A DNA stretch of 36,807 nt from an uncultured Alloprevotella sp. GTDB lineage: Bacteria; Bacteroidota; Bacteroidia; Bacteroidales; Bacteroidaceae. The notes beneath the pieces are model-generated. The model saw only the letters and a list, made by a program, of their open reading frames with translations. It was not told the origin of the DNA and searched no databases. The stretch lies in contig CALUOQ010000019.1 of NCBI GenBank assembly GCA_944322325.1, forward strand, positions 1 through 36,807, written 5' to 3'. Positions 16,694 through 30,345 of the stretch are shown piece after piece (the stretch's first letter is position 1; each line of letters starts with the position of its first letter). A program made the translations under genes and the position numbers.

Positions 16694-16752
16694 ACAAGTA
16701 CTACGACAGGATTTTCTATCGCTGCGATAGGATTTTCTGTCGTAGTACTTGT
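16694..16752. repeat. 21-base-period nested palindromic repeat, locus 1
   Basis: Perfect 16-base arms (ACAAGTACTACGACAG, 16694-16709, with 16737-16752) enclose GATTTT, an inner palindrome CTATCG-CTG-CGATAG (16716-16730) and a second GATTTT. The half-sites CGAYAG and CTRTCG each recur at exactly 21 bases. It lies between the RNA methyltransferase stop (2 bases away) and the GH3 start. The same grammar occurs at 28365-28442. Confidence 0.85.
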
Positions 16753-16754
16753 CG

Positions 16755-17612
16755 TTACGTGGGCGGCACTTGTCCGTCGGCCCCACTGTCCTCGCCGTCG
16801 GTCGGGGCGGGTGAGGGGGTGCGCAGTTCCCAGAACGCCACGGCAGAGGCTGCCGCCACGTTGAGCGAGTCGACGCCGTGGGCCATAGGGATACGCACCA
16901 CGTAGTCGGCCTCGGCGATGACGGAGCGGGGTAGGCCGTCGCCCTCAGTGCCCAGCACGATGGCCAGGCGCGGTTCGTCCTTCAGCACGGGGGTGTCGAG
17001 ACTCAGGGCACCGGGCGCAAGGGCCATGGCCGCGGTGCGGAAACCGAGGCGGCGCAGTTCGGCAATCGGGCGGTCCATCCACGCCCACGGCACGAGGAAC
17101 ACCGAGCCCATCGACACACGCACGGCGCGGCGGCAGAGGGGGTCGCACGAGTCGGGCGTGACGAGTACGGCGTCGATGCCCAGCGCGGCGGCCGAGCGGA
17201 AGATGGCGCCGACGTTGGTCGAGTCTACGACGCCGGCAATGACGGCCACGCGGCGGGCCGGGCGGCACACCTGCTCCCACGCCGCCGGGCGGGGACGCCG
17301 CATGGCGCAGAGCACACCGCGTGTCAGCACGTAGCCCGTCAGCTGGGCGAGCAGTTCGCGCGAGCCGGTGTAGACGGGCAGGTCAGCGCAGCGGGCGACG
17401 AGGTCGGCGGCGTCGCCGTCGATGTGGCGCCGCTCGAGCAGCAGGGCCAGCGGTTCGTAGCCGGCCGCGAGAGCGACGCGGATAACCTTGGGGCTCTCGG
17501 CGACAAATACGCCCTTGTCCGGTTCCAAGCGGTTGCGCAGTTGCGCTTCGGTCAGCGCGCTGAACACTTCCACTCCCGGATGGGCGAGCGAGGTGATTTC
17601 GATGATGGGCAT
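16755..17612 (-). CDS. TrmH/SpoU-family RNA 2'-O-methyltransferase
   Basis: This 285-residue cytoplasmic enzyme should methylate a ribose 2'-OH in rRNA or tRNA using S-adenosylmethionine. The start MPIIEITSLAHPGVEVFSAL is chosen because the longer frame to 17798 runs through the ackA terminator region. An N-terminal substrate-binding region (about 1-110) precedes the knotted SPOUT domain with motif 1 'VDSTNVGAIFRSAAALGID', motif 2 'VLGTEGDGLP' and motif 3 'MAHGVDSLNVAAASAVAFWE'. The exact RNA target cannot be read from sequence; RlmB-like and tRNA enzymes share these motifs. It is downstream of ackA's terminator in the same direction, with a weak promoter element of its own. Confidence 0.9.
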   Translation of the reverse strand: MPIIEITSLAHPGVEVFSALTEAQLRNRLEPDKGVFVAESPKVIRVALAAGYEPLALLLERRHIDGDAADLVARCADLPVYTGSRELLAQLTGYVLTRGVLCAMRRPRPAAWEQVCRPARRVAVIAGVVDSTNVGAIFRSAAALGIDAVLVTPDSCDPLCRRAVRVSMGSVFLVPWAWMDRPIAELRRLGFRTAAMALAPGALSLDTPVLKDEPRLAIVLGTEGDGLPRSVIAEADYVVRIPMAHGVDSLNVAAASAVAFWELRTPSPAPTDGEDSGADGQVPPT

Positions 17613-17674
17613 GGTCGGTCGGTCTGACGGCCTTTGGGGGGATGAGCGGGGCAGTCCCGTGCGGCCTGACGGGG

Positions 17675-17682
17675 CGAAGTTA
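17675..17682 (-). promoter_or_regulatory. Weak -7 element for the RNA methyltransferase
   Basis: TAACTTCG on the minus strand has one mismatch to TAnnTTTG and sits 63 bases before the start codon. No -33 box was identified. Confidence 0.3.
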
Positions 17683-17748
17683 CAGTTTTTTCCGCAGTAG
17701 GCGGTGGCCCCTATCGGGCTTTTTGCAGGGCCGATAGGCCGATAAGCG

Positions 17749-17785
17749 AAAAAAAGCGGGCCGCCCCATGTGTGGGACGGCCCGC
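17749..17785 (-). terminator. Intrinsic terminator of pta-ackA
   Basis: The stem GCGGGCCG (17756-17763 with 17778-17785), extended by a further partly paired CCCA/TGGG, is followed on the minus strand by seven T (A run 17749-17755). It lies 23 bases past the ackA stop. Confidence 0.88.
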
Positions 17786-17808
17786 CTGTCGGTTGCAAGG
17801 GGTTCTGT

Positions 17809-19005
17809 TTATTTCGTGACGAGGGCCAAGGTGTCGCTGGCGATGAGCAATTCCTCGTCGGTGGGCACTACGGCCACAGTGACGGGGCTATCGTAGGCCG
17901 AGATGACGGCCTCTTCGCCATTGACGCTGCGGTTCTTCTCGCGGTCGAGCTTCACGCCGAGGAACTCGAGGCCTTCGAGGGCACCCTCGCGGACATCGGC
18001 CTGATGCTCGCCGACACCGGCGGTGAAGACGATGATGTCGACGCCGCCCATCGCAGCGGCGTAGGCGCCGATGTACTTCTTGATGCGATAGTCATACATG
18101 GCCAAGCCCAACTGAGCGCGCTCGTTGCCGTTTGCTGCAGCCTGCTCGACTTCGCGGATGTCGCTCGAAACGCCCGTGAAGCCCTTCATGCCGCTCTCCT
18201 TGTTGAGCAAATCGCTCGCCTGGTCGGGCGTCTGTCCCTCCTTCTTCATGATGTAAAGAATAGCGGAGGAGTCGATGTCACCGGTGCGGGTGCCCATCAT
18301 GAGGCCCTCCAAGGGAGTGAGCCCCATTGAGGTGTCTACGCATTTGCCGTGGTCGACAGCACTGATGGAGGCTCCGTTGCCGATGTGGCACGTGATGATG
18401 CGCTTCTCGCGCACGTCGACACCGAGATATTCGCCTACGCGCTGGGTGACGAAACGGTGGCTTGTGCCGTGGGCGCCGTAGCGACGGATGTGGTAGTCGG
18501 TGTAGTAGCGGTAAGGCAGGGCGTACATGTAGGCCTTGGGCGGCATGGTCTGATGGAAGGCCGTATCGAACACGAATACCTGGGGCAGTTCGGGCAGGAG
18601 CTGCTTCACTGCCTCGTAGCCCTTGAGGTGGGCGGGGCTGTGCAGGGGAGCCAGTTCCATGTATTTCTCCCACTCCTTGATCATCTCGGGGGTGACGATG
18701 AGGCTCTGCGTGAAGACGCCGCCGTGCACGATGCGGTGGCCGGCGGCTCCAATCTCGTCGAGCGACTGGATGGCGCCGTACTCGGGATGCAAGAGGGTGT
18801 CGAACATGAGCTTGATGCCCTCGGTGTGGGTAGGCACGTCGGCTTCGATGATTTTGGAACTGCCGTCGGGCAGCTTGGCTTTGAGGAAGGCGCCGGGAAG
18901 GCCGATTTTCTCGATGCCGCCGGCGGCCAGCACGCTCTTGTCGTCCATTTCGTAAAGTTTGTACTTGATGGACGAGCTGCCGCAGTTAATGACCAGAATT
19001 TTCAT
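17809..19005 (-). CDS. ackA: Acetate kinase
   Basis: This 398-residue cytoplasmic enzyme converts acetyl phosphate and ADP to acetate and ATP, the energy-yielding last step of acetate fermentation. The start MKILVINCGSSSIKYKL carries the phosphate-1 motif of the ASKHA fold. Other family marks are 'HRIVHGG', 'FDTAFHQTMP', 'YGAHGTSHRFV', 'CHIGNGASISAV', 'SMGLTPLEGLMMGTRTGDID' and 'FTAGVGEH'. Length is exactly that of the family. It follows pta by 111 bases on the same strand with a hairpin in the gap that may reduce read-through. Confidence 0.97.
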   Translation of the reverse strand: MKILVINCGSSSIKYKLYEMDDKSVLAAGGIEKIGLPGAFLKAKLPDGSSKIIEADVPTHTEGIKLMFDTLLHPEYGAIQSLDEIGAAGHRIVHGGVFTQSLIVTPEMIKEWEKYMELAPLHSPAHLKGYEAVKQLLPELPQVFVFDTAFHQTMPPKAYMYALPYRYYTDYHIRRYGAHGTSHRFVTQRVGEYLGVDVREKRIITCHIGNGASISAVDHGKCVDTSMGLTPLEGLMMGTRTGDIDSSAILYIMKKEGQTPDQASDLLNKESGMKGFTGVSSDIREVEQAAANGNERAQLGLAMYDYRIKKYIGAYAAAMGGVDIIVFTAGVGEHQADVREGALEGLEFLGVKLDREKNRSVNGEEAVISAYDSPVTVAVVPTDEELLIASDTLALVTK

Positions 19006-19060
19006 ATCGGATTTTGAGTTTGTTTGAGCAATGAGGATTGGACAGGGAATAACTGAAAAT

Positions 19061-19102
19061 GGAGAGCGGGCAACTGACGGGTACATCAGTCTCCGGCTCT
19101 CC
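19061..19102 (-). terminator. Hairpin between pta and ackA, possible partial terminator
   Basis: GGAGAGC (19061-19067) pairs with GCTCTCC (19096-19102), with an inner ACTGA/TCAGT pair; on the minus strand ATTTTC follows. It could lower ackA transcription relative to pta or act as an mRNA processing site. Confidence 0.5.
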
Positions 19103-19116
19103 ATGAACGGTCTGTT

Positions 19117-20139
19117 TTATTGTTTTTCCATCTCCTTGAGGGCGATGGCTTGATTGGCCGTTACGGCAATCATTTTGTAGACGTCGTCGGTGCTACAGCC
19201 GCGGCTCAGGTCGTTGACGGGGCGGGCGATGCCTTGAAGGATGGGGCCGATGGCCTCGGCGCGGCCCAGGCGCTGCACGAGCTTATAGCCGATGTTGCCC
19301 ACTTCGAGGTTGGGCACGACAAGCACGTTGGCGTTTCCGGCGATGGGCGAACCCGGAGCCTTGCTGGCGCCGACCGAAGGAACCAAGGCGGCGTCGGCCT
19401 GCAGGTCACCGTCGACTTTGAGCGTCGGGTCCAGTTCGCGGGCGCGCTGGGTGGCGGCTACGACCTTGTCGACGCATTCGTGCTTGGCCGAACCCTTGGT
19501 CGAGAAGCTCAGCATGGCTACGCGGGGGTCGGTGAATCCGGCCACGGCCTTGGCTGTGCGTGCTGTGCAAACGGCTATCTGGGCCAGCTGCTCGACGTCG
19601 GGGACGGGCGTCACGGCGACGTCGCCCATGACGAGCACGCCGTCTTCGCCGTATTCCTGTGCCTTGGTCAGGAGCAGCATGGCGCCCGACACGCACGTGA
19701 TGCCCGGCGTGGTCTTGATGATTTGCAGGGCGGGGCGAAGCACGTCGCCCGTGGTGTTGCGCGCGCCGGCTACCTGGCCGTCGGCGTCGCCGCTCTTTAT
19801 CATCAGGCAGCCCAGATAAAGGGGATCTTTCACCAGTTCGCGGGCTTGCTCGATGGTCATGCCTTTTTTCTTGCGCAGTTCGGCCAGCAGTTCGGCGTAG
19901 GTTTCGGCTTTCGGGTTGTTGCTGGGGTCGATGATGGTGGCTCCCCCAATGTTCATGAGGTTCCACTCGGCGGCCAGACTCTTAATCTCTTTCGGATCGC
20001 CCAGCAGGATGATGTCGGCGAGGCCTTCGGCAATGGCGCGGTCGGCAGCACGCAGCGTGCGGCCCTCGCTGCCTTCGGGAAGCACGATACGTTGCTTCGA
20101 GGCGCGGGCGCGGGTGATAAGTTGACTGATAATGTCCAT
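19117..20139 (-). CDS. pta: Phosphate acetyltransferase
   Basis: This 340-residue short-form Pta makes acetyl phosphate and CoA from acetyl-CoA and phosphate, feeding acetate kinase downstream. The start is MDIISQLITRARASKQRIVL, with 'VLPEGSEGRTLRAADRA' following. Later landmarks are 'YLGCLMIKSGDADGQVAGA', 'TTGDVLRPALQIIKT', 'DPRVAMLSFSTKGSA' and 'NVLVVPNLEVGNIGYKLVQR'. It lacks the N-terminal regulatory domains of the long enterobacterial Pta, as usual in Bacteroidetes. pta is first in the unit, promoter just upstream at 20166, ackA second. A longer in-frame extension to 20625 covers the DUF4834 gene and was rejected. Confidence 0.96.
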   Translation of the reverse strand: MDIISQLITRARASKQRIVLPEGSEGRTLRAADRAIAEGLADIILLGDPKEIKSLAAEWNLMNIGGATIIDPSNNPKAETYAELLAELRKKKGMTIEQARELVKDPLYLGCLMIKSGDADGQVAGARNTTGDVLRPALQIIKTTPGITCVSGAMLLLTKAQEYGEDGVLVMGDVAVTPVPDVEQLAQIAVCTARTAKAVAGFTDPRVAMLSFSTKGSAKHECVDKVVAATQRARELDPTLKVDGDLQADAALVPSVGASKAPGSPIAGNANVLVVPNLEVGNIGYKLVQRLGRAEAIGPILQGIARPVNDLSRGCSTDDVYKMIAVTANQAIALKEMEKQ

Positions 20140-20165
20140 TATTCTGAGGATTAGATTTGCATGTG

Positions 20166-20173
20166 CAAAGGTA
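20166..20173 (-). promoter_or_regulatory. -7 element for pta-ackA
   Basis: TACCTTTG on the minus strand matches TAnnTTTG, 27 bases before the pta start. No clear TTG box at the expected spacing. Confidence 0.5.
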
Positions 20174-20252
20174 AGCCTTTTTCCGCTGGCGGGTGCGACG
20201 GGCGGCGCTTTTTTCGCGCTGATAAATGGCCGCACGGAGATAGAATGACGGG

Positions 20253-20280
20253 AAAAGCCGGCAGAACAATGGCTGTCGGC
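20253..20280 (-). terminator. Terminator after the DUF4834 gene
   Basis: GCCGGCAG (20257-20264) pairs with CTGTCGGC (20273-20280) with one G-T pair; TTTT follows on the minus strand (20253-20256). It lies 5 bases beyond the stop of the small membrane protein. Confidence 0.65.
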
Positions 20281-20285
20281 GGGAA

Positions 20286-20531
20286 CTATTTCTTGATTTC
20301 TTCGAAATCTACGTATTCGCCTTCGCTTTTGTCGAATATCTTTCCTTGCTTTTTCGGGGAGTGTGTGGACTTTGCGTGGGGCTGTCCGCCTTGTGTGTTC
20401 CGTTGCGACTGACGCGTGGTGTCCTGCGGCCGTTGCGGCCCGAACAGGAAGCTGAGCACGGACTTCGCCGCGGCAAGCATCAGAAAGAGTCCGAGAAACA
20501 ACAGGACAAACAGACAACCGAGGAACTTCAT
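20286..20531 (-). CDS. DUF4834 family small membrane protein
   Basis: The 81-residue protein has one N-terminal transmembrane helix (about 4-31, very Leu/Phe-rich), a polar, Gln/Ser/Lys-rich linker and a conserved-looking acidic end 'IFDKSEGEYVDFEEIKK'. This layout, and especially the last motif, matches the Bacteroidales family DUF4834, whose function is not known to me. Its ATG overlaps the pssA stop by 4 bases (ATGA), so translation is coupled. Being the last gene of psd-pssA suggests a link to membrane lipid synthesis, which is inference from position only. Confidence 0.75.
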   Translation of the reverse strand: MKFLGCLFVLLFLGLFLMLAAAKSVLSFLFGPQRPQDTTRQSQRNTQGGQPHAKSTHSPKKQGKIFDKSEGEYVDFEEIKK

Positions 20532-21259
20532 CGCTGCGAAGAATTAGCGCCAGCTTGCGGACGGCGGGCGGCGAGCACGGAAAGAACGACGTAGAGCACG
20601 ATGGCGGCGGAGAAGCCGGCTGCACCCATGACGAGCAACAACGCCAGACTGACGAGCAGGAAAGAGTAGCGAAGCCGGTTGTCAGCCCAACGGAACGACT
20701 TGAACTTCAGCGCAAACATAGGGATTTCGCTGACCATCAGGTAGCACGAGAGCAACACACCCAGCAGGAGGACGTACGGGCTATAGGCCCAAGCCATCAG
20801 GGCATCGCCCCAACCCACGGCAAGGGCGCCCCAGAAGAGAGCATTGGCAGGGGTGGGCAGACCAATGAACGACGTGGTCTGACGTGTATCCAGATTGAAT
20901 TTGGCCAAGCGCAGAGCTGAGAAAGCGGCCATCAGAAAGGCGAGGTAGGGAAGCAGTGTTCCGGCGGTACTGTCGGCGAGGGGCCACTGCGCATCGCGCA
21001 GCAGGGCGTACACGATAGTAGCGGGGGCAAAGCCGAACGTAATGTCGTCTGCCAGTGAGTCAAGCTCAACGCCTACGGGCGACGACACGCCGAGCAGGCG
21101 CGCTACGAAGCCGTCGAAAAAGTCGAACACCGCGCCGCCCACGATAAAGGCCAGCGCCCAACCGAAACTGCCGGAAAAAGCAAAGCCGGTGGCGATGCAA
21201 CCACAGATAAGGTTGCAGCACGTCAGCGCGTTGGGTAGGTTCTTGCGGATTACGGACAT
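20528..21259 (-). CDS. pssA: CDP-diacylglycerol-serine O-phosphatidyltransferase
   Basis: This 243-residue inner-membrane enzyme makes phosphatidylserine from CDP-diacylglycerol and serine. The CDP-alcohol phosphotransferase signature is complete: D49 G50, A53 R54, G63, D67, D71 (DG-x2-AR-x8-G-x3-D-x3-D). Several hydrophobic helices span the rest. Its product is the substrate of Psd, encoded just upstream with a 10-base overlap. It is the type II, membrane-bound form, not the peripheral E. coli form. The last residues are Ala/Arg/Gln-rich and overlap the next start. Confidence 0.95.
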
Positions 21260-21948
21260 GTGGGGTGGAGCTTTGCGACGACGGTCTGGTTGCCTGTCGT
21301 GTATTGTCCGAACTTCACGAGAATTTCGGAGTTCAGCGGCAGGTAGACGTCCACGCGCGATCCGAACTTAATGAAGCCCATGTGCTCGTCGATGTAGCAC
21401 TCTTCGCCCGGACGGGCGTATGTGACGATGCGCCGGGCCACTGCACCGGCTATCTGGCGCACCAGGATTTCCTGGCCTGCCGGGGTTTCGATGACCACGG
21501 TCGAGCGTTCGTTTTCGATGCTCGCTTTGGGCAGCCACGCTTTGTGGTAGTTTCCGTTGTGGTGCTCTACCTTCTTCACGAATCCCTCTACGGGAAACCA
21601 GTTGGCGTGTACGTTGGTGAGCGACATAAATATGGAAACCATCACGCGCCGGTCGTGGAAGTATTCGTTTTCCTCGACTTCTTCGATGACGACAACCTTG
21701 CCGTCGGCGGCGGCTACGACGGTGTTTTCGATGTCACCGTTGAAAAGGCGGATGGGGCACCGGAAGAAATTGACAGCAATGCCGTACGCGACGAGGCTGA
21801 CGAACAGGACGAGGAAGAAAAGGAAAGAAAATCCGGTCAGACACCCTGTCAGCGCGTTGACCACGACAAGGAATACCGCCGCTGCGACGAGCGTGTGCGT
21901 TCCTTCCCGGTGTAGGCGTATGTGCTTGATTCTTTTTATTTTCCCCAT
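21250..21948 (-). CDS. psd: Phosphatidylserine decarboxylase proenzyme
   Basis: This 232-residue membrane-associated enzyme decarboxylates phosphatidylserine to phosphatidylethanolamine. Two N-terminal hydrophobic segments (about 20-60) are followed by the catalytic domain. Self-cleavage is expected at Gly196-Ser197 in '[14 protein letters not shown]', the serine becoming the pyruvoyl group. '[18 protein letters not shown]' is the other family landmark. It is the short, PSD-A-like type with an FGS site instead of LGST. It leads the psd-pssA-DUF4834 unit, overlaps pssA by 10 bases, and has a promoter element at 21992. Confidence 0.95.
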
Positions 21949-21991
21949 TTCCGGTGAGTGAAAGTCGGATGCGTTTTTGCTTAATTACGCG

Positions 21992-21999
21992 CAAAGATA
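21992..21999 (-). promoter_or_regulatory. -7 element for psd-pssA
   Basis: TATCTTTG on the minus strand matches TAnnTTTG, 43 bases before the psd start. It implies the lipid genes can be transcribed apart from the upstream folP unit. Confidence 0.55.
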
Positions 22000-22092
22000 C
22001 GGATAAATAACTAAACGGCACGACAAAAGGCGCGAAAATCGTCTTTTGTCGGGCTGGATGAGTTGTGAATGAGCCGGTTGCGGTGGAATTTT

Positions 22093-23613
22093 TCAGGGCT
22101 GAAATATGTTGAGCCCGGGTTCGACGAGCGGGGTACTGACACAGCCGCCACTCAGCAGGCTATGGTAGAGGAAGTCTGTGCGGTAGCGGCGGGTGGCGTT
22201 GCGGCGCAAGGCATTGACTTTCTGCGGGTAGCGCCGGGCGTAGTGGTCGGAATACCAGACGAGGGCGGCGGGGTGCTTGATGGCTTCGTTGTGGCTGGCG
22301 TGAAGCCAGTCACCGTTCTCACCCAACGCTTCGCCGTGGTCGGACAGGTAGACGAGCAGGGCGGTGCGCCTTTCGAGTCGGCGGATGACTTCGTCGAGAA
22401 ACTCGTCGGTGGCGAGTACCGTATTGTCGTAAGCATTGATGATTTCTTCCGGGCGATTGCGCTTCACTTCGCGGTTGCGCGTGACGGGCTGAAAGCGTGC
22501 CAGCCGCTTCGGGCAGTGGTTGACGTAGTACCAGTGGCTCCCGATGGTATGCAGGATCAGCAGTTGGCGTGTCGGGGCTTGATGTCCCGGCGCGAGGAGG
22601 CGGTCGAGGTGGGGCAGGATGTCGGTGTCGAGCCATTCGTCGTAGACGTAGACCGTCTTTTCGGGGTGGACAAAAATGGCACTGTCGCACTCGTGGATAA
22701 AGTCGACGTATGTGTCGGCCGCGTCTTGGTTGGCCACCCAAGTAGTACGGAAGCCGTCGCGCTTGAAGGAGGGGACGAACGATGTCTCGCTGAATGCGCG
22801 TTCTTCGTGGGTGCTGTCGGCACGTGTCAGCAAGTGGGGCAGACTGCGGTTAGTATAGGTGTATTCGCTGTATATGTAGGGCAGTACGACGAGGTTGCTC
22901 CGCCGGGCAAGGCGAGGCGTCGTGGGGCGGTCGTAGCCAGCGATGGCGAGGTGGTCGGTCCTGAGCGATTCGCCGATGACGAGGACCAGGGTCAGCGTGT
23001 CGGTGCGCGTCGGGGCCGGGCGCTGGGCGTCGGGGTCGGTGCGCTTCGTCGGAGCGGGGCGTGACTCCAGATAAAGTCGCAGGTTGTAGTACACATTACA
23101 CGGATAGCGCTGCATACACCCGCTATGGATGCGCGGATGACTGTTGACGTAGCCCGCGAGCAACAGAAGTCCGGCCGCAGCGTGCCATCCCCAGCCGGGC
23201 AGGCTGAGGCGCCGCCTGGCGCGTATGGCGAGGGCGGCGAAGGCCAGTGCCGCCGCGATGCAGCAGAGCAGTCCCGGTGTGATCAGTTCGAGCGAGGTAC
23301 GCCAGTCGTTGTGGAACGTGGCGTCGAGCAGCATGGGCGTCAGGGTGGCGCTGAACGCAAACCTGAAGTAGGCCACCACGGCACCCAACAGACAGTACAG
23401 CGGGAATACAACGTAAAATATCGGGCGGCACGCAGCCAGCGCATAGATCCACAGGAAGTTAGCCACGACGACAACGGCCCAGTATGCCGCGATTTGGGCT
23501 ATGCCCACCGCGCCTGTAACCGGGTTGTCCAGAAAGTCGGGCAGCACAAAGCCGATTCCGGCGAAGAGTGTCAGCGCACCGACGAAGTACAGGTATTTCA
23601 CAAAAGGTTTCAT
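22093..23613 (-). CDS. Phosphoethanolamine transferase, EptA-like, inner membrane
   Basis: The 506-residue protein has about five N-terminal membrane helices (about 8-155) and a periplasmic alkaline-phosphatase-fold domain. Metal and catalytic motifs are present: 'LVIGESLRTDHLAIAGYDR' (E215), a threonine in 'TYTNRSLPHLLT' (T254) at the place of the EptA nucleophile, 'HTIGSHWYY', and 'YLSDHGEALGENGDW'. The family moves phosphoethanolamine from phosphatidylethanolamine onto lipid A or core sugars. psd and pssA, which make that donor, follow 145 bases downstream. In Bacteroidales such modification affects cationic-peptide resistance, but the acceptor here is not known. It is the last gene of folP-cdaA-acyltransferase-ept, overlapping the acyltransferase by 4 bases. 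Confidence 0.88.
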   Translation of the reverse strand: MKPFVKYLYFVGALTLFAGIGFVLPDFLDNPVTGAVGIAQIAAYWAVVVVANFLWIYALAACRPIFYVVFPLYCLLGAVVAYFRFAFSATLTPMLLDATFHNDWRTSLELITPGLLCCIAAALAFAALAIRARRRLSLPGWGWHAAAGLLLLAGYVNSHPRIHSGCMQRYPCNVYYNLRLYLESRPAPTKRTDPDAQRPAPTRTDTLTLVLVIGESLRTDHLAIAGYDRPTTPRLARRSNLVVLPYIYSEYTYTNRSLPHLLTRADSTHEERAFSETSFVPSFKRDGFRTTWVANQDAADTYVDFIHECDSAIFVHPEKTVYVYDEWLDTDILPHLDRLLAPGHQAPTRQLLILHTIGSHWYYVNHCPKRLARFQPVTRNREVKRNRPEEIINAYDNTVLATDEFLDEVIRRLERRTALLVYLSDHGEALGENGDWLHASHNEAIKHPAALVWYSDHYARRYPQKVNALRRNATRRYRTDFLYHSLLSGGCVSTPLVEPGLNIFQP

Positions 23614-24719
23614 CGGTTGGATCGGTGTTTAAGGCCGGCCAGGGCCGGCATGAACCGGCGGACGAGCAGGATGAGTGGTACGGAGAGCATCAATGCGGCA
23701 GCGACCAACCCCAGCGACGCGACGGTCGAATCGTACAGGGTAAGGGGGCGGTGCAGCAGGAATACGGTGATGCCTTTTATGATGCTGAAGAGAGTCAGGT
23801 GGGTGGCCAGCAGGAGCAGCGTGTAGCGCCCTATGAACGTCAGGGGGTTGGCTGCGACGGGCCAGTGCGCCAAGCTGCGGGCTACGGCCAGCGTCAGGAT
23901 GATGCCGCCGGTGCCGCCGAGCAGGAAGAGGGCGAAACTGCCGAAACGGGCCTGGTGGACGGCTACCGTGGGGTTGCCCCACCAAGCCAGGAGGTAGCCT
24001 CCCAATGCGATGAGGATAAGCCCGCTTGCTTGCCGTCGCGGCCAAGTCGGGCGCAGGGCTGCGTCGCGCGTCAAAGCTCCCAGCCCGTAGAAAAGAATCA
24101 TGACGAGTGCCGCTGTCAGTCCCCATGGCAGTTCGACCTCCAAGGTCGAGAGTGACGCGCCGAGCAGGGCGAGTGCCGCCATGCGCAGCAACCGGGCCCG
24201 GCGGGTCAGCGCAGGGCGCACACCTATATAATATAGGGTTTCGGTGGAGAAGAGACAGGGCAGAAACCAAAGCGGTACGTACTGCGTCAGGCTGTCGGCG
24301 TTGCCCCAAACGAAGCCCCATAGCGGTTGCCACGCGGCGACCGTTGTCCCGGCGTCGGCACCGAAGTGCCGCCCCACCGTCCACCATAGCACATAGTGGA
24401 GCAGGCCAAAGGAAAAGTAAGGCAGTAGCAGCCGTCGCCATTGTCGTTGCAAGTAGACTTCCGGCGTCAGGTCCTTGTGGACGTCGGCAAAAAGGCCGGC
24501 GAGGTAAAAGAAAAGGGGAATCAGAGCGACGTATATGGCATGTTTCGCCGCGTCGGGAATGGCTGTGTGTACGAGCATCACCCCAATGATAGCCAAGGCC
24601 TTCGCGCAGTCTACCCATGCGATGCGCTTGCCGTCAGTTTGAGGCGTGGCGTAGGCAGTCCGGGCGTCCGGGCGCGGCGTGGTGTTTGCCCTCATCGGTT
24701 CGGTGTGCGTCAGTTCCAC
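23610..24719 (-). CDS. Acyltransferase 3 family membrane protein
   Basis: The 369-residue protein has about ten hydrophobic helices and the acyltransferase-3 start 'RIAWVDCAKALAIIGVMLVH', whose histidine is the family's likely catalytic residue. 'QRQWRRLLLPYFSFGLLHY' is the conserved Arg-rich loop before the third helix. Members add acetyl or succinyl groups to sugars of surface polysaccharide or peptidoglycan. The first Met at 24719 overlaps the cdaA end by 10 bases; a second Met at 24695 would avoid the overlap, and either is possible because the first 30 residues are not conserved. The ATGA overlap with the phosphoethanolamine transferase suggests both act on the same envelope molecule, which is inference. 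Confidence 0.85.
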   Translation of the reverse strand: MELTHTEPMRANTTPRPDARTAYATPQTDGKRIAWVDCAKALAIIGVMLVHTAIPDAAKHAIYVALIPLFFYLAGLFADVHKDLTPEVYLQRQWRRLLLPYFSFGLLHYVLWWTVGRHFGADAGTTVAAWQPLWGFVWGNADSLTQYVPLWFLPCLFSTETLYYIGVRPALTRRARLLRMAALALLGASLSTLEVELPWGLTAALVMILFYGLGALTRDAALRPTWPRRQASGLILIALGGYLLAWWGNPTVAVHQARFGSFALFLLGGTGGIILTLAVARSLAHWPVAANPLTFIGRYTLLLLATHLTLFSIIKGITVFLLHRPLTLYDSTVASLGLVAAALMLSVPLILLVRRFMPALAGLKHRSNR

Positions 24720-25471
24720 TCAGCCGTCAGGCGGGTTTCGAGTTCCTCGGCCGAGAGGCGCAGGTAGAACTGTCCGTTCTGTGCCATGGAGATGCCACCC
24801 GTTTCCTCTGATACGATGATGGCCAGGCAGTCGCTTTTTTGCGAGATGCCCAGTGCGGCCCGGTGGCGGAGTCCCAAGGCTTTGGGGATGTCCGAGTTGT
24901 GCGCCACGGGCAGGATGCAGCCGGCCGCCTTGATGCGCTTGTGGCTGATAATGACGGCACCGTCGTGCAGGGGGCTGTTTTTGAAGAAGATATTCTCGAT
25001 GAGCCGTTGGTTAATGTCCGCATTGATGATGTCGCCGGAGCGGATGTATTCGTTAAGGCCCACTTTTCGCTCGATAACGATGAGTGCGCCGACCTTTTGC
25101 TTGGCCATACTCATGCACGCCATGACGATGGGCATGACGTCTTCGCGGTGTACGTCGCTCTTCTTTTTGCCAAGCAGTCGGAACAGTACGTCTACCTTGT
25201 GGTGCGTGCCGATGGACGAAAAGAAGCGTCGTATTTCCTCCTGGAACAATATGATGAGCGCCAAACCTCCCATGCTGACCAACTTGTCGAGCAGAGTGCC
25301 CAGAAGGCGCATTTCGAACACCTGGCTCACCAATAGCCATACCACAAGGAAGATGAGGATGCCCGAGAATATATTGACGGCGCTCGATTCCTTCATCAGA
25401 CGAAAAACGTAGTAAAGGCCGAGTGCGACGCAGAGGATGTCTATGGCGTCTTTGATGCCGAAGTCAAGCAT
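24710..25471 (-). CDS. cdaA: Diadenylate cyclase (c-di-AMP synthase), CdaA type
   Basis: The 253-residue membrane protein makes cyclic di-AMP from two ATP. Three N-terminal helices (about 8-80) precede the DAC domain with 'LHDGAVII' (DGA 170-172) and 'GLRHRAALGIS' (RHR 202-204), both needed for ATP binding and catalysis. A cytosolic coiled region lies between. Length is typical. It overlaps folP by 8 bases and the acyltransferase by 10, so it is translated within one unit. In Firmicutes cdaA is linked to glmM and cdaR; here it sits with folP, as often seen in Bacteroidetes. A probable c-di-AMP phosphodiesterase (PgpH type) lies at 31266-33389. Confidence 0.95.
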   Translation of the reverse strand: MLDFGIKDAIDILCVALGLYYVFRLMKESSAVNIFSGILIFLVVWLLVSQVFEMRLLGTLLDKLVSMGGLALIILFQEEIRRFFSSIGTHHKVDVLFRLLGKKKSDVHREDVMPIVMACMSMAKQKVGALIVIERKVGLNEYIRSGDIINADINQRLIENIFFKNSPLHDGAVIISHKRIKAAGCILPVAHNSDIPKALGLRHRAALGISQKSDCLAIIVSEETGGISMAQNGQFYLRLSAEELETRLTAEWN

Positions 25472-26327
25472 GGTCGTCGTGTTTTGCGTTTTGCAGGGCT
25501 CGGACTATCGTTACGGCTTCGACGGCCGCTTTTACGTCGTGTACGCGCAGGATGGCCGCCCCTTTCATCAGCGCGGCGGTGTGGAGTGCGGTGGTACCGT
25601 TCAGGGCGTCGGCAGGACCGCCTCCGACGAGGCGGTACACCATCGACTTGCGCGACACGCCCACCAGTACGGGCAGGCCGAGCGCGGTCAGTTCCTCGAG
25701 GTGTGCAAGCAGGGTGTAGTTGTCCTCCAGCGTCTTGCCGAAACCGAAACCCGGGTCTACGACAACGTCCTTCACCCCGAGCGCGTGCAGACGTTGTACC
25801 CGTGGGGCCAGGTACTGCATGACGTCGCACACGACGTCGTTGTACTGCGGCGCGCATTGCATGGTCTGTGGCGTGCCGCGCATGTGCATCAGTACGTAGG
25901 CCACGCCGAGGCGTGCCACGGTGGAAAACATGTCTCCGTCGAGGTCACCGCCGGCGATGTCGTTAATCATCTCGATGCCGAACTCCTCGACCGCCATGCG
26001 CGCCACATCGGCGCGGAACGTGTCGACCGAGACGGGCAGTTCCGGCGCTTCGCGGCGCACGACGGCCAGTCCCCGCCTGAGGCGTTCCATCTCTTCGGCC
26101 GGCGTCACGTCGGCGGCTCCGGGTCGCGAGGAGTAAGCCCCGATGTCGATGAGGGCGGCTCCTTCGTCGCGTATCTGCCGTGCGCGGAGGGCGATGGCTT
26201 CGGTCTCGGTCGTGCGGCTGTCGGCGTAAAATGAGTCGGGCGTCACGTTGAGGATGCCCATGACGCAGGGTGTCGTGAGGTCCAGCAAGCGTCCGCCCAG
26301 GTTGAGCGTGTGGGTACGATAGGTCAT
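25464..26327 (-). CDS. folP: Dihydropteroate synthase
   Basis: This 287-residue cytoplasmic enzyme joins dihydropterin pyrophosphate with p-aminobenzoate in folate synthesis and is the sulfonamide target. The start MTYRTHTLNLGGRLLDL is chosen over an upstream Met that would lie over the promoter. Landmarks in order: 'GILNVTPDSFYADSR', 'IDIGAYSSRPGAADV', 'MINDIAGGDLDG', 'MHMRGTPQTM', 'VVDPGFGFGKT', 'VGVSRKSM' and 'ILRVHDV'. Length is normal and nothing marks a resistance variant. It is first of the folP-cdaA-acyltransferase-ept unit and divergent from murF. Confidence 0.96.
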   Translation of the reverse strand: MTYRTHTLNLGGRLLDLTTPCVMGILNVTPDSFYADSRTTETEAIALRARQIRDEGAALIDIGAYSSRPGAADVTPAEEMERLRRGLAVVRREAPELPVSVDTFRADVARMAVEEFGIEMINDIAGGDLDGDMFSTVARLGVAYVLMHMRGTPQTMQCAPQYNDVVCDVMQYLAPRVQRLHALGVKDVVVDPGFGFGKTLEDNYTLLAHLEELTALGLPVLVGVSRKSMVYRLVGGGPADALNGTTALHTAALMKGAAILRVHDVKAAVEAVTIVRALQNAKHDDHA

Positions 26328-26360
26328 GTCGTCGTTATGGGGGTAGTCCCTTTTTGCAGA

Positions 26361-26368
26361 CAAATATA
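26361..26368 (-). promoter_or_regulatory. -7 element for the folP unit
   Basis: TATATTTG on the minus strand matches TAnnTTTG, 34 bases before the folP start. No convincing -33 TTG. Confidence 0.55.
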
Positions 26369-26411
26369 CGAAGAACATCCGTACCCGTCGCCCTGTCTAC
26401 CTGAAAACCGC

Positions 26412-26419
26412 TAACTTTG
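26412..26419 (+). promoter_or_regulatory. -7 element for murF
   Basis: TAACTTTG on the plus strand matches TAnnTTTG, 31 bases ahead of the murF start, back to back with the folP element. Confidence 0.55.
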
Positions 26420-26449
26420 CACGCGGACAACGATTCTAATCTTTCAGGT

Positions 26450-27745
26450 ATGGCAGATATTACCGGGCTTTACGCCCTTTTTCAGCAGCACCCTGTCGTG
26501 ACGACCGATACGCGCGACTGCCCTCCCGGTTCCATTTTCTTCGCCCTTCGCGGCACGACGTTCGACGGTAACGCCTTTGCCCTTCAGGCCCTCAGGGCCG
26601 GTTGTGCCTGTGCCGTGGTCGACGACCCGGCCGTCGAAGGTGACGGCCGTCTGATTCACGTGCCCGATGCGCTCGAGGCGCTACAGCAGCTTGCCGCCTA
26701 TCATCGCCGACAGTTGGGGCTGCCGGTGATTCAGATCACCGGAACCAACGGGAAAACCACCACGAAGGAACTGGTGACGGCCGTGTTGGCCCGCCGGTAC
26801 AACGTGCTCGCGACGCAAGGGAATTTCAATAACCATATCGGCGTACCCAAGACGTTGCTCCGCCTCACGGCCCGCCACGAAGTGGCTGTCGTCGAGACCG
26901 GGGCCAACCATCCCGGTGAGATAGCCGCTCTGAGCCGCGTTGCCGACCCTGACTGCGGCCTGATTACGAACGTGGGCAAAGCCCATCTGGAAGGTTTCGG
27001 CTCGTTCGAGGGCGTCGTCCGTACCAAAGGTGAGCTTTATGACTACTTGCGGCAGAAGGGAGGCTACATTTTCCTTGATGCCGGCAATCCCCATCTGGCG
27101 CGCATCGCCGGAGGCCTCGAGGCCGTCCGTTACGGAGTGCCCGGACAGGGCTGTGATGTGGAGGGCGAACTGGCCGACAATGGCCCCATGCTGTCCTTGC
27201 GCTGGCGTCCGGCGGGCGGCGAGTGGCAGACGGTACAGACGAACCTTGTCGGTGCTTACAATCTGGGTAATGCGCTGGCTGCGGCGGCTGTGGGCGTGCG
27301 TTTCGGTGTAGCGCCGGCCGACATCAGTCAGGCGCTGGCGGACTATGTGCCGGCGCTGGGCCGGTCCCAGCTGAAGGACACCGGACGCAACCGCCTGGTT
27401 GTCGACGCCTACAATGCGAACCCGACGAGTATGGCTGCCGCCCTCACTGGTTTTGCCCGCATGGGGGGTGAGGCGAAAATGGTTATCCTTGGCGATATGC
27501 GCGAACTGGGCGACGCTTCGGCCGCCGAGCATCAGACCGTGGTCGACCGTTTGCCCGCTGTGGGCTGTCAGGATGCCTGGCTCGTGGGCCCCTGCTTCGC
27601 GGCGACGCGTCACGACGGTTGCCGCGTATTTCCCGACGTCGAGGCTGTCAAGGAGGAACTCCGCAATCACCCCCAGCAAGGGCGGCTGATTCTCATCAAG
27701 GGCAGTCACGGCACCCGCCTTTTCGAACTGGCCGATGTTCTTTAG
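26450..27745 (+). CDS. murF: UDP-N-acetylmuramoyl-tripeptide-D-alanyl-D-alanine ligase
   Basis: This 431-residue cytoplasmic ligase adds D-Ala-D-Ala to the muramyl tripeptide using ATP, the last cytoplasmic step before lipid-linked peptidoglycan synthesis. The start MADITGLYALFQQHPVVTTD lies just after the promoter. The N-terminal UDP-binding domain has 'TDTRDCPPGSIFFALRG'. The ATP site is 'ITGTNGKTTTKELV', followed by 'GNFNNHIGVPKTLL', 'VVETGANHPGEI', 'TNVGKAHLEGFGS' and, at the third domain, 'VVDAYNANPTSM' and 'ILGDMRELG'. It ends 'KGSHGTRLFELADVL'. It is complete and stands alone, outside the usual mur cluster, and ends at a bidirectional hairpin. Confidence 0.96.
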   Translation: MADITGLYALFQQHPVVTTDTRDCPPGSIFFALRGTTFDGNAFALQALRAGCACAVVDDPAVEGDGRLIHVPDALEALQQLAAYHRRQLGLPVIQITGTNGKTTTKELVTAVLARRYNVLATQGNFNNHIGVPKTLLRLTARHEVAVVETGANHPGEIAALSRVADPDCGLITNVGKAHLEGFGSFEGVVRTKGELYDYLRQKGGYIFLDAGNPHLARIAGGLEAVRYGVPGQGCDVEGELADNGPMLSLRWRPAGGEWQTVQTNLVGAYNLGNALAAAAVGVRFGVAPADISQALADYVPALGRSQLKDTGRNRLVVDAYNANPTSMAAALTGFARMGGEAKMVILGDMRELGDASAAEHQTVVDRLPAVGCQDAWLVGPCFAATRHDGCRVFPDVEAVKEELRNHPQQGRLILIKGSHGTRLFELADVL

Positions 27746-27769
27746 TCGCGCGACGAAGGTACGAAAACA

Positions 27770-27809
27770 CATTGCGGCCGCATCGGTTAAGTCCGGTGCG
27801 GCCGCAATG
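27770..27809. terminator. Bidirectional hairpin between murF and the CxxC lipoprotein
   Basis: A 13-base perfect stem (CATTGCGGCCGCA, 27770-27782, with 27797-27809) lies between converging genes. A-rich sequence precedes it on the left; there is no long T run on the right. Confidence 0.7.
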
Positions 27810-27840
27810 ATAGGAATAAGACTTGGCCCCCGCGACGGTG

Positions 27841-28431
27841 TCAGTTGTTGACGACGAGGCGGTCGGCGGCGTAGTACACGCGGTAGCGGAACAAGGAACG
27901 TCCGGCCCCGCCTTGGGTCACGATGCCGAAGTTGTTGAGATCGTAGTCGCGGTCGCAGCGCGTACAGTGGGCCGTTCCCTCGTCCGCGAAGGTGAGGCGG
28001 CGCTGTATGGTGCTCTCGCTGAAACAATTGGGGCATACGGCGTCGTACGCCACGAGGCTGAGCTGGCCTGAACTGAGGTCGGGCACATTGGTCGTGCCGA
28101 CAATGAAACCGCTGAGGCACTGCCACGTGGTGTAGGCGTCGGCCGCCGTGACGGGGTAGGTGCCCGTGCTGCCCGCCGCGTTCTGGAAGTAGTACTGGCC
28201 GGTGTCGCGCCAGACGAGGCAGAAGAGGCCGGGATTGTTGACCGCCTGATGGAGCTGGGAGACAGCCGTGACGGGCGTGAAGTTGAAGGAGGCGCGATAG
28301 TTGGCGTAAACGCTGTCCACGCTGTCCGCGCACGACGCGAAAACCATCGCGGCGAGGGTAAATCCTGTCGCAGCGATAGTTTTTCCTATCGCTGCGACAG
28401 AAATTCTTGGCGCTGCGACAGGAAATCTCAT
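27841..28431 (-). CDS. Lipoprotein with paired CxxC motifs (Rieske-fold/zinc-ribbon-like), signal peptide made of a DNA repeat
   Basis: The 196-residue exported lipoprotein has its lipobox 'VFASC' at C34. The mature part has 'AYDAVCPNCF' (C133, C136) and 'HCTRCDRDYDLNN' (C156, C159), followed by 'GRSLFRYRV'. Similar Bacteroidales lipoproteins have two CxxC pairs about 20 residues apart in a small beta domain, like a Rieske fold in which the histidines are replaced by cysteines; a bound zinc or structural metal is likely. Function is unknown. Residues 1-22 are encoded by the 21-base repeat array and read with a 7-residue period ('VAAPRIS', 'VAAIGKT', 'IAATGF'). The start codon overlaps the argH stop (ATGA), implying coupled translation. 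Confidence 0.75.
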   Translation of the reverse strand: MRFPVAAPRISVAAIGKTIAATGFTLAAMVFASCADSVDSVYANYRASFNFTPVTAVSQLHQAVNNPGLFCLVWRDTGQYYFQNAAGSTGTYPVTAADAYTTWQCLSGFIVGTTNVPDLSSGQLSLVAYDAVCPNCFSESTIQRRLTFADEGTAHCTRCDRDYDLNNFGIVTQGGAGRSLFRYRVYYAADRLVVNN

Positions 28432-28442
28432 CGCTGCAACAG
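28365..28442. repeat. 21-base-period palindromic repeat, locus 2, inside coding DNA
   Basis: In plus-strand order: CTGTCG-CAG-CGATAG, TTTTTC, CTATCG-CTG-CGACAG, AAATTC, TTGGCG-CTG-CGACAG, GAAATC, TCATCG-CTG-CAACAG. The core CGCTGCRACAG starts at 28390, 28411 and 28432, exactly 21 apart. 28365-28379 and 28386-28400 form a perfect 15-base inverted repeat. It covers the argH stop (28428-28430) and the first 22 codons of the lipoprotein. Same grammar as 16694-16752. Confidence 0.85.
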
Positions 28443-29768
28443 TTTGTTTTCGGCCTCGGCCACGCGGTCGAAACCGAAACGGGCGTAGGTGGCTTCGGCC
28501 ATTTCGCGGATGCGGTCGTTGCAGAGGTTGCCGATGCTGCCCTCGTGGGTGTGGCAGACGTGCTTGTCGGGCACGAAGCGGCCGGCTTCAATGTCGAGAC
28601 CTACCTTCCGGTACGCGTCGCGGAAAGGCATACCCGACGCGGCCAGGCGATTGACCTCCTCGACGGAGAACATGGCGTCGTAGCGGGTGTCGTCGAGGAT
28701 GTGCTCGTTGACGCGGATGCGTTCGACGATGTATTCCGCCATGCTGAGGCAGTCGTCCAGCGCGTCGAACGCCGGGAGAAACGCTTCCTTGATTTCCTGA
28801 AGGTCGCGGAAGTAGCCCACGGGCAGGTTGTTCATGATGAGCGTAATCTGCTGAGGCAGGGCCTGTAACTTGTTGCAACGGGCGCGGATGAGCTCGAATA
28901 CGTCGGGGTTCTTCTTGTGCGGCATGATGCTCGACCCGGTGGTGCACTCGTCGGGCAACTTGATGAAGGCGAAGTTCTGGGAGTTGAACATGCAGGCGTC
29001 GAATGCCATCTTGGCTACCGTTCCTGCAATGCCGGCCAGGGCAAAGGCGACGTTGCGCTCGTTCTTGCCACGGCCCATTTGGGCATAGACTACGTTGTAG
29101 TCCATGGAGTCGAAACCCAGCAGCCGTGTAGTCATGGAACGGTCGAGCGGGAACGACGAGCCGTAGCCGGCTGCCGACCCCAGCGGGTTGCGGTTCGTCA
29201 TGCGGTAGGCGGCTTCCAGCAGCAGCAAGTCGTCAGCCAGGCTTTCGGCGTACGCGCCGAACCACAGACCGAAGCTCGAGGGCATGGCTACCTGCAAGTG
29301 GGTATAGCCGGGCATCAGGACGTCGCGGTAGCGTTCGCTCTGGGCCTGAAGCGCGCGAAAGAGGGCCATGACGTGGTCCGCCACTTCGCGAATCTTGTCA
29401 CGGGTGAAGAGCTTGAGGTCTACGAGAACCTGATCGTTGCGCGAACGTCCGCTGTGGATTTTCTTGCCCGTGTCGCCGAGCCGTCGCGTAAGCATCAGCT
29501 CGACTTGCGAGTGGACGTCCTCGACACCCTCTTCGATGACGAAACGCCCGGCTTCGGCCTCGGCATAAATGGCGCGCAGCTCGGCAAGCAGGGCGTCGAG
29601 CTCGTCGCGACGGAGGAGGCCGATGTGCTCGAGCATGGTGATGTGGGCCATCGAACCAAGGACGTCGTATTTGGCCAGATAGAGGTCGAGCTCGCGGTCG
29701 TGACCCACGGTGAAGCGCTCGATGACTTCGTTCACCGCGATGTTCTTTTCCCAAAGTTTTGTAGGCAT
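28428..29768 (-). CDS. argH: Argininosuccinate lyase
   Basis: This 446-residue cytoplasmic enzyme splits argininosuccinate to arginine and fumarate. The fumarase/aspartase superfamily signature 'GSSIMPHKKNPD' is present, with 'SGRSRNDQVLVDLKLF', 'MPGYTHLQVAMPSSFG', 'NRNPLGSAAGYG' and the N-terminal 'LWEKNIAVNEVIERFTVG'. The last codons (LLQR, stop) lie in the 21-base repeat array, so the repeat has set or shifted the end of the protein. Its stop overlaps the lipoprotein start. No other arginine synthesis gene is in the window; upstream are an SRPBCC protein and pyrE. Confidence 0.95.
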   Translation of the reverse strand: MPTKLWEKNIAVNEVIERFTVGHDRELDLYLAKYDVLGSMAHITMLEHIGLLRRDELDALLAELRAIYAEAEAGRFVIEEGVEDVHSQVELMLTRRLGDTGKKIHSGRSRNDQVLVDLKLFTRDKIREVADHVMALFRALQAQSERYRDVLMPGYTHLQVAMPSSFGLWFGAYAESLADDLLLLEAAYRMTNRNPLGSAAGYGSSFPLDRSMTTRLLGFDSMDYNVVYAQMGRGKNERNVAFALAGIAGTVAKMAFDACMFNSQNFAFIKLPDECTTGSSIMPHKKNPDVFELIRARCNKLQALPQQITLIMNNLPVGYFRDLQEIKEAFLPAFDALDDCLSMAEYIVERIRVNEHILDDTRYDAMFSVEEVNRLAASGMPFRDAYRKVGLDIEAGRFVPDKHVCHTHEGSIGNLCNDRIREMAEATYARFGFDRVAEAENKLLQR

Positions 29769-30296: not shown

Positions 30297-30303
30297 AGGG
30301 AGT

Positions 30304-30345
30304 AATTGAGAGTTGACAATTGATAATTGAGAGTTGGCAATTGGC
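30304..30345. repeat. Two tandem 21-base AT-rich repeats
   Basis: Copies at 30304-30324 and 30325-30345 (core AATTGAGAGTTGRCAATTG) agree at 18 of 21 bases. The sequence type (runs of AATTGA) is common between Bacteroidales genes; a related patch lies near 10433-10459. It sits just upstream of the SRPBCC start. Confidence 0.7.

Follow-up and report, generated by a model that had tools for sequence, protein, structure and literature searches.

Arrays of 15-bp palindromes at a 21-bp step in an uncultured Alloprevotella: a layout shared by most sampled congeners, with words that differ between species

The nearest known kind of element to the repeat arrays described here is the BIME/REPIN-type palindrome. 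REP, BIME and REPIN elements, which occur with RAYT transposases, are short palindromes that exceed 100 copies per genome, are mostly intergenic, cluster in units of alternating orientation and fold as hairpins when present as doublets (PMC2817692, PMC3116915, PMC3733652), and REP palindromes are defined as having, on one side, a tag that stays unpaired, GTAG or CGTC (PMC3733652). The arrays were found at two loci in a 36,807-bp stretch of DNA (the window) from an uncultured Alloprevotella sp. (GCA_944322325.1, contig CALUOQ010000019.1, positions 1 to 36,807, forward strand). They follow a 21-bp grammar, are abundant in the genome of origin, and recur with the same grammar and other words in most of the sampled congeners. 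Like the REP, BIME and REPIN elements, they are high-copy intergenic palindromes with alternating unit clusters and hairpin doublets, but they form a two-turn (21-bp) lattice of 15-bp units, have inner paired letters that do not co-vary and lack a matching Y1 transposase in the two genomes discussed below. An unpaired GTAG or CGTC tag was not seen by eye, no scan having been made; GTAG does occur inside CTRTC-GTAGT-ACTTG units. The DNA-uptake-sequence dialects of Neisseriaceae are a single system with species-specific words, many genomic copies and frequent inverted pairs, and the arrays resemble them in these features of sequence; we know of no two-turn lattice among DNA-uptake sequences.

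BrickBuilt of Porphyromonas gingivalis is also short-unit tandem DNA between genes, but its unit is 23 nt without a spacer, it has a leader and a tail with inverted-repeat ends, and the stem "palindrom-" is absent from the main text (PMC4596501), whereas the units here are (quasi-)palindromic. The Rickettsia palindromic elements are comparable in part, being palindromic repeats inserted in frame in protein genes, but they are about 150 bp long (PMC10969869), against a unit of 21 bp here and 5 coding arrays of 58 by our own reading (3 by the gene finder). Titles and the openings of abstracts in the literature held no description of such arrays in this group.

An initial annotation had assigned both window loci to one rule, CGAYAG, six AT-rich bases, CTRTCG and then CTG, repeated every 21 bases, and its letters and coordinates were reproduced at both loci when the window was read again. 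Locus 1 has CGACAG at 16704, CTATCG at 16716, CTG at 16722, CGATAG at 16725 and CTGTCG at 16737; its full layout over 16695-16751 is CAAGTACTACGACAG-GATTTT-CTATCGCTGCGATAG-GATTTT-CTGTCGTAGTACTTG, a near-perfect inverted repeat that adjoins the stop codon (16755) of a minus-strand RNA methyltransferase gene. Locus 2 has CGCTGCRACAG at 28390, 28411 and 28432, and carries decayed units (28344-28358, 28407-28421 and 28428-28442) on both sides of its clear ones. The 21-base step of the rule held, but the unit CGAYAG/CTRTCG was too narrow. The real unit is a 15-bp (quasi-)palindrome composed of a 5-bp half-site, a 5-bp centre and a second 5-bp half-site, followed by a 6-bp AT-rich spacer. The CTG part of the rule holds only in part, as CAG is also used as a centre on the same strand at locus 2 (CAG at 28371, CTG at 28392).

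The vocabulary of half-sites is small (CTRTC/GAYAG, CAAGT and CxGGG), and the frequent units are CAAGT-ACTAC-GAYAG, CAAGT-GTAGT-CCCMG and CTRTC-GCWGC-GAYAG, plus units bearing the CxGGG half-site. The commonest spacers between GAYAG and CTRTC half-sites were AAATTC (14), GATTTT (13), AAAATC (12) and AAATTT (10). By eye, the middle unit tends to be palindromic and the flanking units to be oppositely oriented, reading outward, while the array ends are variable with decayed terminal units. The spacing between CTRTC and GAYAG was restricted to five bases, with 72 occurrences in 800 kb of the window's own genome (G000; 2,721,972 bases, 90.67% complete), 41 in the congener G023 and 6 in G049, against 0 to 3 at the remaining spacings from 2 to 10. 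The five-base centres differ among these three genomes, and the pattern occurred 0 to 1 times in the other 16 genomes. Centres with CTG (27) and CAG (36) were nearly equal in number; this parity was dropped as support for a symmetric reader because each is merely the other read on the opposite strand. Mixed units of the form CTRTCGnnnCGAYAG were skewed on the contig plus strand of G000, with 29 copies of CTGTCG..CGATAG and 9 of the reverse complement CTATCG..CGACAG (binomial p = 0.0017). As the strand of a contig is arbitrary, the skew may reflect replication direction.

A REP-like dispersed element with 21-base steps had been suggested, and the genome-wide copies and arrays agree with that suggestion. 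The core CTRTCGCWGCGAYAG occurs 133 times in G000 and the same pattern read backwards, used as a control, 0 times. Arrays, taken as clusters of at least two family words, numbered 56 in a contiguous sample of 600 kb (38 in 400 of the 433 kb of contig 1 and 18 in 200 of the 259 kb of contig 2), so that the family is clearly neither confined to two loci nor at chance level. Extrapolation would put the whole genome at roughly 250 arrays. When the window and ten 20-kb pieces picked for holding matches were included, 85 arrays were counted in 837 kb. Within the window, CTRTCGCTGCGAYAG with up to two mismatches matched 7 times on both strands, against 0.25 expected and a maximum of 3 in 100 shuffles; this excess and the 133 cores exclude a two-locus coincidence. 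The rule CGAYAG-N6-CTRTCG alone is weak there at two mismatches, with 9 matches against 5.3 expected and 5 of 100 shuffles equalling it. As a DNA query, with 40 of the 204 candidates scored, locus 1 gave at least 78 matches in its own genome, whereas 20 relatives gave none. A generic two-unit expression matched 113 times in 400 kb of contig 1, compared to 0.1 in Markov shuffles, and 0 times in 400 kb of six congeners; the words of these congeners differ.

The exact core was present in two of the 58 genomes of the genus, G000 (133) and G023 (15), and a longer form in one of the 393 genomes of the order, namely G000. G023 has the same layout with partly different words, and 41 clusters were found in 315 kb of stretches largely picked around matches. 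A word-free test was made by matching 21-base windows against themselves at lags of 12 to 40, outside predicted genes, in 19 genomes of the genus including the own. Lag 21 was the highest of the 29 lags in 15 of the 19 (118 against a mean of 12.0 in G000; 12 against 0.6 in G049); the counts are upper bounds because some stem from period-7 heptamer arrays or coding remnants. In 17 of the 19 genomes, arrays whose inverted match covered 11 or more of 12 bases were above shuffles (the number of arrays in G000 was capped at 60). The species words include TACCTCAGAGGTAG in G027, AAACTATCGCCGCGATAGTTT in G049, CTGCAGTGCTTGTAG in G008 and G036, TCCATCCCATGGA in G051 and G063, TTACAAACTTTGTAA in G040, CAAACGATAGTTTG in G064 and ACCAAACTTTGGTTT in G037. 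The layout is thus conserved over most of the sampled congeners and the words are species dialects. One array of G049 (L157:15415-15495) combines two unit types, CTGTCGCCGCGATAG and CTCGGAGATATTT.

Outside the genus, four genomes were sampled, one of another family and three of other genera within the same family (80 kb, of which 28.6 kb lie outside genes); in this small sample lag 21 scored 3, the mean being 1.5, and no array was visible by eye. An exact 27-base pattern had 4 single matches in the collection genome_contigs and 3 in viral_contigs, which on a rough estimate are probably chance; a variant ending in CAAGTACTA was absent from viral_contigs. These scans may omit genomes very near the window's own.

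Placement was analysed for 58 arrays, including those of the window, with a purpose-written codon-usage gene finder and with TAnnTTTG, the Bacteroidota promoter motif. Thirty arrays lay between tandem genes, 17 between divergent and 8 between convergent genes, and 3 were coding; compared with the 223 background gaps of at least 80 bp (129 tandem, 53 divergent, 41 convergent), no preference for gene orientation was found among the 58 arrays. Frame reading added two coding arrays, window locus 2 and one near 236,005 on contig 1. The five coding arrays are open frames that write Ala/Thr-rich heptapeptides (TNAATG occurs four times in one protein), and they occupy low-complexity linkers or N-terminal regions of the dnaX product, an HU-domain protein with LysM, a LysM protein, an outer-membrane-type protein (our own assignment, made without a family call) and the window lipoprotein. 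The distance from an array to the downstream gene start was at least 70 bp in 61 of 64 cases. Arrays occupied 53 of the 244 gaps of at least 60 bp on contigs 1 and 2, 79 of 346 when the picked pieces were added, and 29 of 123 in G023.

Turnover was followed at two distances. The sister species G051 and G063 share a collinear segment of 40 kb, with most long blocks 91-93% identical and one 86%, and three G063 arrays of this segment each have a syntenic array in G051, of which a stricter array finder recovered only one. The words differed at 8 of 117 positions and the spacers at 15 of 48 (p = 1.1e-4), and in one unit an asymmetric centre was flipped. In these two species, C2:110,001-150,000 (L146 and L204 in G063; L150 and L203 in G051) also holds palindrome-rich intergenic modules of several hundred bp, about 70-80% alike, which contain 21-bp arrays plus other palindromes. 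The second comparison was of G000 with G023 (86% complete; median protein identity 66%), for which 12 gaps could be compared by gap-by-gap orthology. Locus 2, the one orthologous array site compared in detail, is 42 bp longer in G000 than in G023, its nearest relative by score, a difference of two whole 21-bp units.

The reading that we favour, tentatively and with rather less than even confidence, is that the two window loci belong to a genome-wide family of mostly intergenic arrays in which dispersed dimer sites are phased at two helical turns. Each unit would be recognised by a DNA-binding protein acting as a symmetric dimer. With a step of two turns, every site would face the same side of the helix, and dimers could assemble next to one another. 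The initial annotation had raised the one-face idea, and the 21-bp step in most of the sampled species supports it; the helical phasing itself is what we infer from that step. Arrays would lengthen by whole 21-bp units and reach new intergenic sites over species time, and the recognised word would drift together with its reader, such that species keep the layout, each with its own dialect. The role would lie at the level of DNA rather than RNA, either in nucleoid organisation or as a recognition step in the repeat's own spread. A broader form of this proposal, which we hold more cautiously, is a genus-wide DNA lattice in which a fast-evolving dimeric reader, possibly also the spreader, maintains hundreds of arrays of its own word, with the layout fixed and the word replaced genome-wide between species. 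If this is true, the rapidly evolving pairs of satellite and binding protein would have a bacterial counterpart in such a lattice.

The constant layout and changing words across much of the genus are the mark of a recognition system that co-evolves rapidly, and they point to a fast-changing system, so far undescribed, that marks or copies DNA. Of the larger intergenic gaps on the two contiguously sampled contigs, more than a fifth carry arrays, and dnaX has one in a linker. Once known, the reader would make it possible to test how hundreds of sites are rewritten together in one bacterium, and whether the arrays serve chromosome organisation or merely exploit the chromosome. Relatives elsewhere could be sought by the 21-bp lag, without reference to words.

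Several observations weigh against the dimer-site proposal, 1) four of the 19 genomes fail in the lag test, namely G004 (1 against 9), G065 (1 against 7), G064 (7 against 9, lag 22) and G051 (8 against 11, lag 12), with arrays visible by eye in G064 and G051 all the same but none so seen in 100 kb of G004 and 60 kb of G065, 2) the slower change of words than of spacers comes from three arrays only, 3) two further G063 arrays had no G051 partner, though the fetched G051 stretches may not cover them, 4) the sites of arrays in G000 are not kept in G023, and arrays with gaps of at least 60 bp on both sides shared 1 of 14 5' flanks and 0 of 13 3' flanks, so a positional role is not evident, 5) the outer paired positions of the units lean weakly to complementarity in G000 (p = 0.067), while neighbouring half-sites across the spacer lean the opposite way (p = 0.051), and 6) no reader protein was found. 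Lrp/AsnC proteins, which bind 15-bp palindromes and for this reason were tried as the candidate reader, had the identical recognition helix SRAAIHQRV in G000, G036, G040, G050 and G049 despite the different words of these genomes (8 of 16 sequences were readable, the rest being in the wrong frame or cut), and had no match in G023; Lrp/AsnC is therefore unsupported as the reader.

A selfish palindromic repeat of the REP/BIME type, moved by an enzyme other than a Y1 (RAYT) transposase, is in our estimate only a little less probable. The words would then be the sites of the enzyme and the arrays would be tolerated in gaps and linkers, which fits the many, mainly intergenic and orientation-neutral copies, the occupancy of the larger gaps, the array sites that differ between G000 and G023, and the presence of arrays within low-complexity linkers of genes, dnaX for instance. 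However, the Y1/RAYT transposase family PF01797 had 0 matches in G000 and G023, at the completeness given above, though 28 of 58 congeners have one at E <= 0.001; a RAYT/REPtron was ruled out on this ground, and the array ends are variable and decaying rather than fixed termini. A selfish element with an unrecognised enzyme would be about as good an explanation of the dispersal, and it may be one and the same system as the dimer-site arrays. Quite improbable in our estimate is a minisatellite within a miniature inverted-repeat transposable element, as in BrickBuilt, which would share the short tandem unit, the mostly intergenic position and, probably, the bacterial order of P. gingivalis. BrickBuilt itself has the spacerless 23-nt unit, leader and tail described above, whereas the 116 flanks of the 58 arrays, compared from 45 to 205 bp out with the nearest 45 bp left aside, had no common segment. 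Seven pairs matched at E <= 1e-4, of which two exceeded 45 bp (one of 153 bp and one of 72 bp) and the rest were shorter, and a common leader or tail was rejected. The 153-bp flank, 89% identical, is shared by the arrays at 57,957 and 63,236 of contig 1, which are 5 kb apart, and is perhaps a local duplication.

An RNA hairpin array was another option of the initial annotation, and terminators or processing hairpins at transcript ends are unlikely, if less so than a BrickBuilt relative. Predicted folding of single copies was strong (z of -9.2 and -8.0), as it would be because any inverted repeat must fold; many arrays lie near gene 3' ends, and a simple terminator scan matched both loci (16703-16746 on both strands; 28365-28379) and found 27 sites in 16 kb, where shuffles gave 14.0. 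But the inner paired R/Y letters of the half-sites are independent (24/29/9/12, Fisher p = 1.0), which suggests a degenerate protein contact rather than a base pair, and RNA structure under selection was rejected for want of covariation. Terminators were rejected on placement, since arrays ignore gene orientation, they are not over-represented in convergent gaps (8 of 58, compared with 41 of 223 among the background gaps) and they are frequent in divergent ones (17); nor did Rfam match in the window. The accompanying remark that hairpins can arise from any two units was overstated, being true of reverse-complementary units only. Least probable by far is that the arrays have neither function nor mobility and arose by slippage and mutation, or that coding periodicity mimics the 21-bp period. 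Multiples of 3 were indeed raised once coding DNA was counted in the lag analysis, and period-7 heptamer arrays contribute a few lag-21 counts, but the excess persists when predicted genes are left out, in most genomes at lag 21 specifically, and the presence of the same words at unlinked loci already contradicts this explanation.

The features of the window are collected in Table 1. The genes that flank locus 1 were both matched in G023 and G050, yet are not adjacent there, and six further genomes searched gave a good match to the methyltransferase region only. Nine stretches were read, seven beside the methyltransferase and two towards the glycosidase, and two held different arrays of the 21-bp type, composed of words of the relative itself, downstream of the methyltransferase in G039 and upstream of the glycosidase in G050; these may be chance because array occupancy of gaps is high enough. 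The glycoside hydrolase ATG at 16601 agrees with the start of the G050 relative. At locus 2, the lipoprotein-like reading frame had no NCBIfam or Pfam match. Its ATG overlaps the argH stop codon in the window genome and likewise in G023, G045 and G050, and the distance from Met to the lipobox Cys is 34 residues in the own copy, 20 in G023, 18 in G050 and 34 in G045, where the letters are unrelated.

Table 1. Arrays and genes of the window (window coordinates)
Feature	Position	Strand	Remarks
Glycoside hydrolase, beta-glucosidase/xylosidase type	14379..16601	minus	below NCBIfam cut-offs; downstream neighbour of array 1
Array 1 (locus 1)	16694..16752	none	three 15-bp units, 16695-16709, 16716-16730 and 16737-16751; two GATTTT spacers
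RNA 2'-O-methyltransferase, TrmH/RlmB type	16755..17798	minus	below NCBIfam cut-offs; upstream neighbour of array 1
Phosphoethanolamine-lipid A transferase family protein	22093-23613	minus	below every curated cut-off
Lipoprotein-like open reading frame	27841..28431	minus	signal peptide MRFPVAAPRISVAAIGKTIAATGFTLAAMVFASC encoded in frame by array 2
Array 2 (locus 2)	28344..28442	none	period 21; clear units 28365-28379 and 28386-28400; 6-bp spacers
argH, argininosuccinate lyase	28428..29768	minus	last codons inside outermost decayed unit of array 2

Other repeats were also met. The window has, at 30303-30343, two copies of a 21-bp heptamer-like repeat of the AATTGAC type, which belongs to a separate period-7 family; similar period-7 arrays of TTGACAATTGACAAT occur in G063 (L143:7400) and G051 (L150:8963), and CCATTGA types in G012 and G037. 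G008 (L137:9162-9676) carries, besides its arrays, a longer palindromic repeat that is also dispersed, CCCCTACCTTAGGGG with GGGAGCTCCC. In G004, a long repeat of about 70 bp, CCCAACTCCGTTACGAGC, extends over L120:8805-10490 and presumably encodes a leucine-rich-repeat surface protein.

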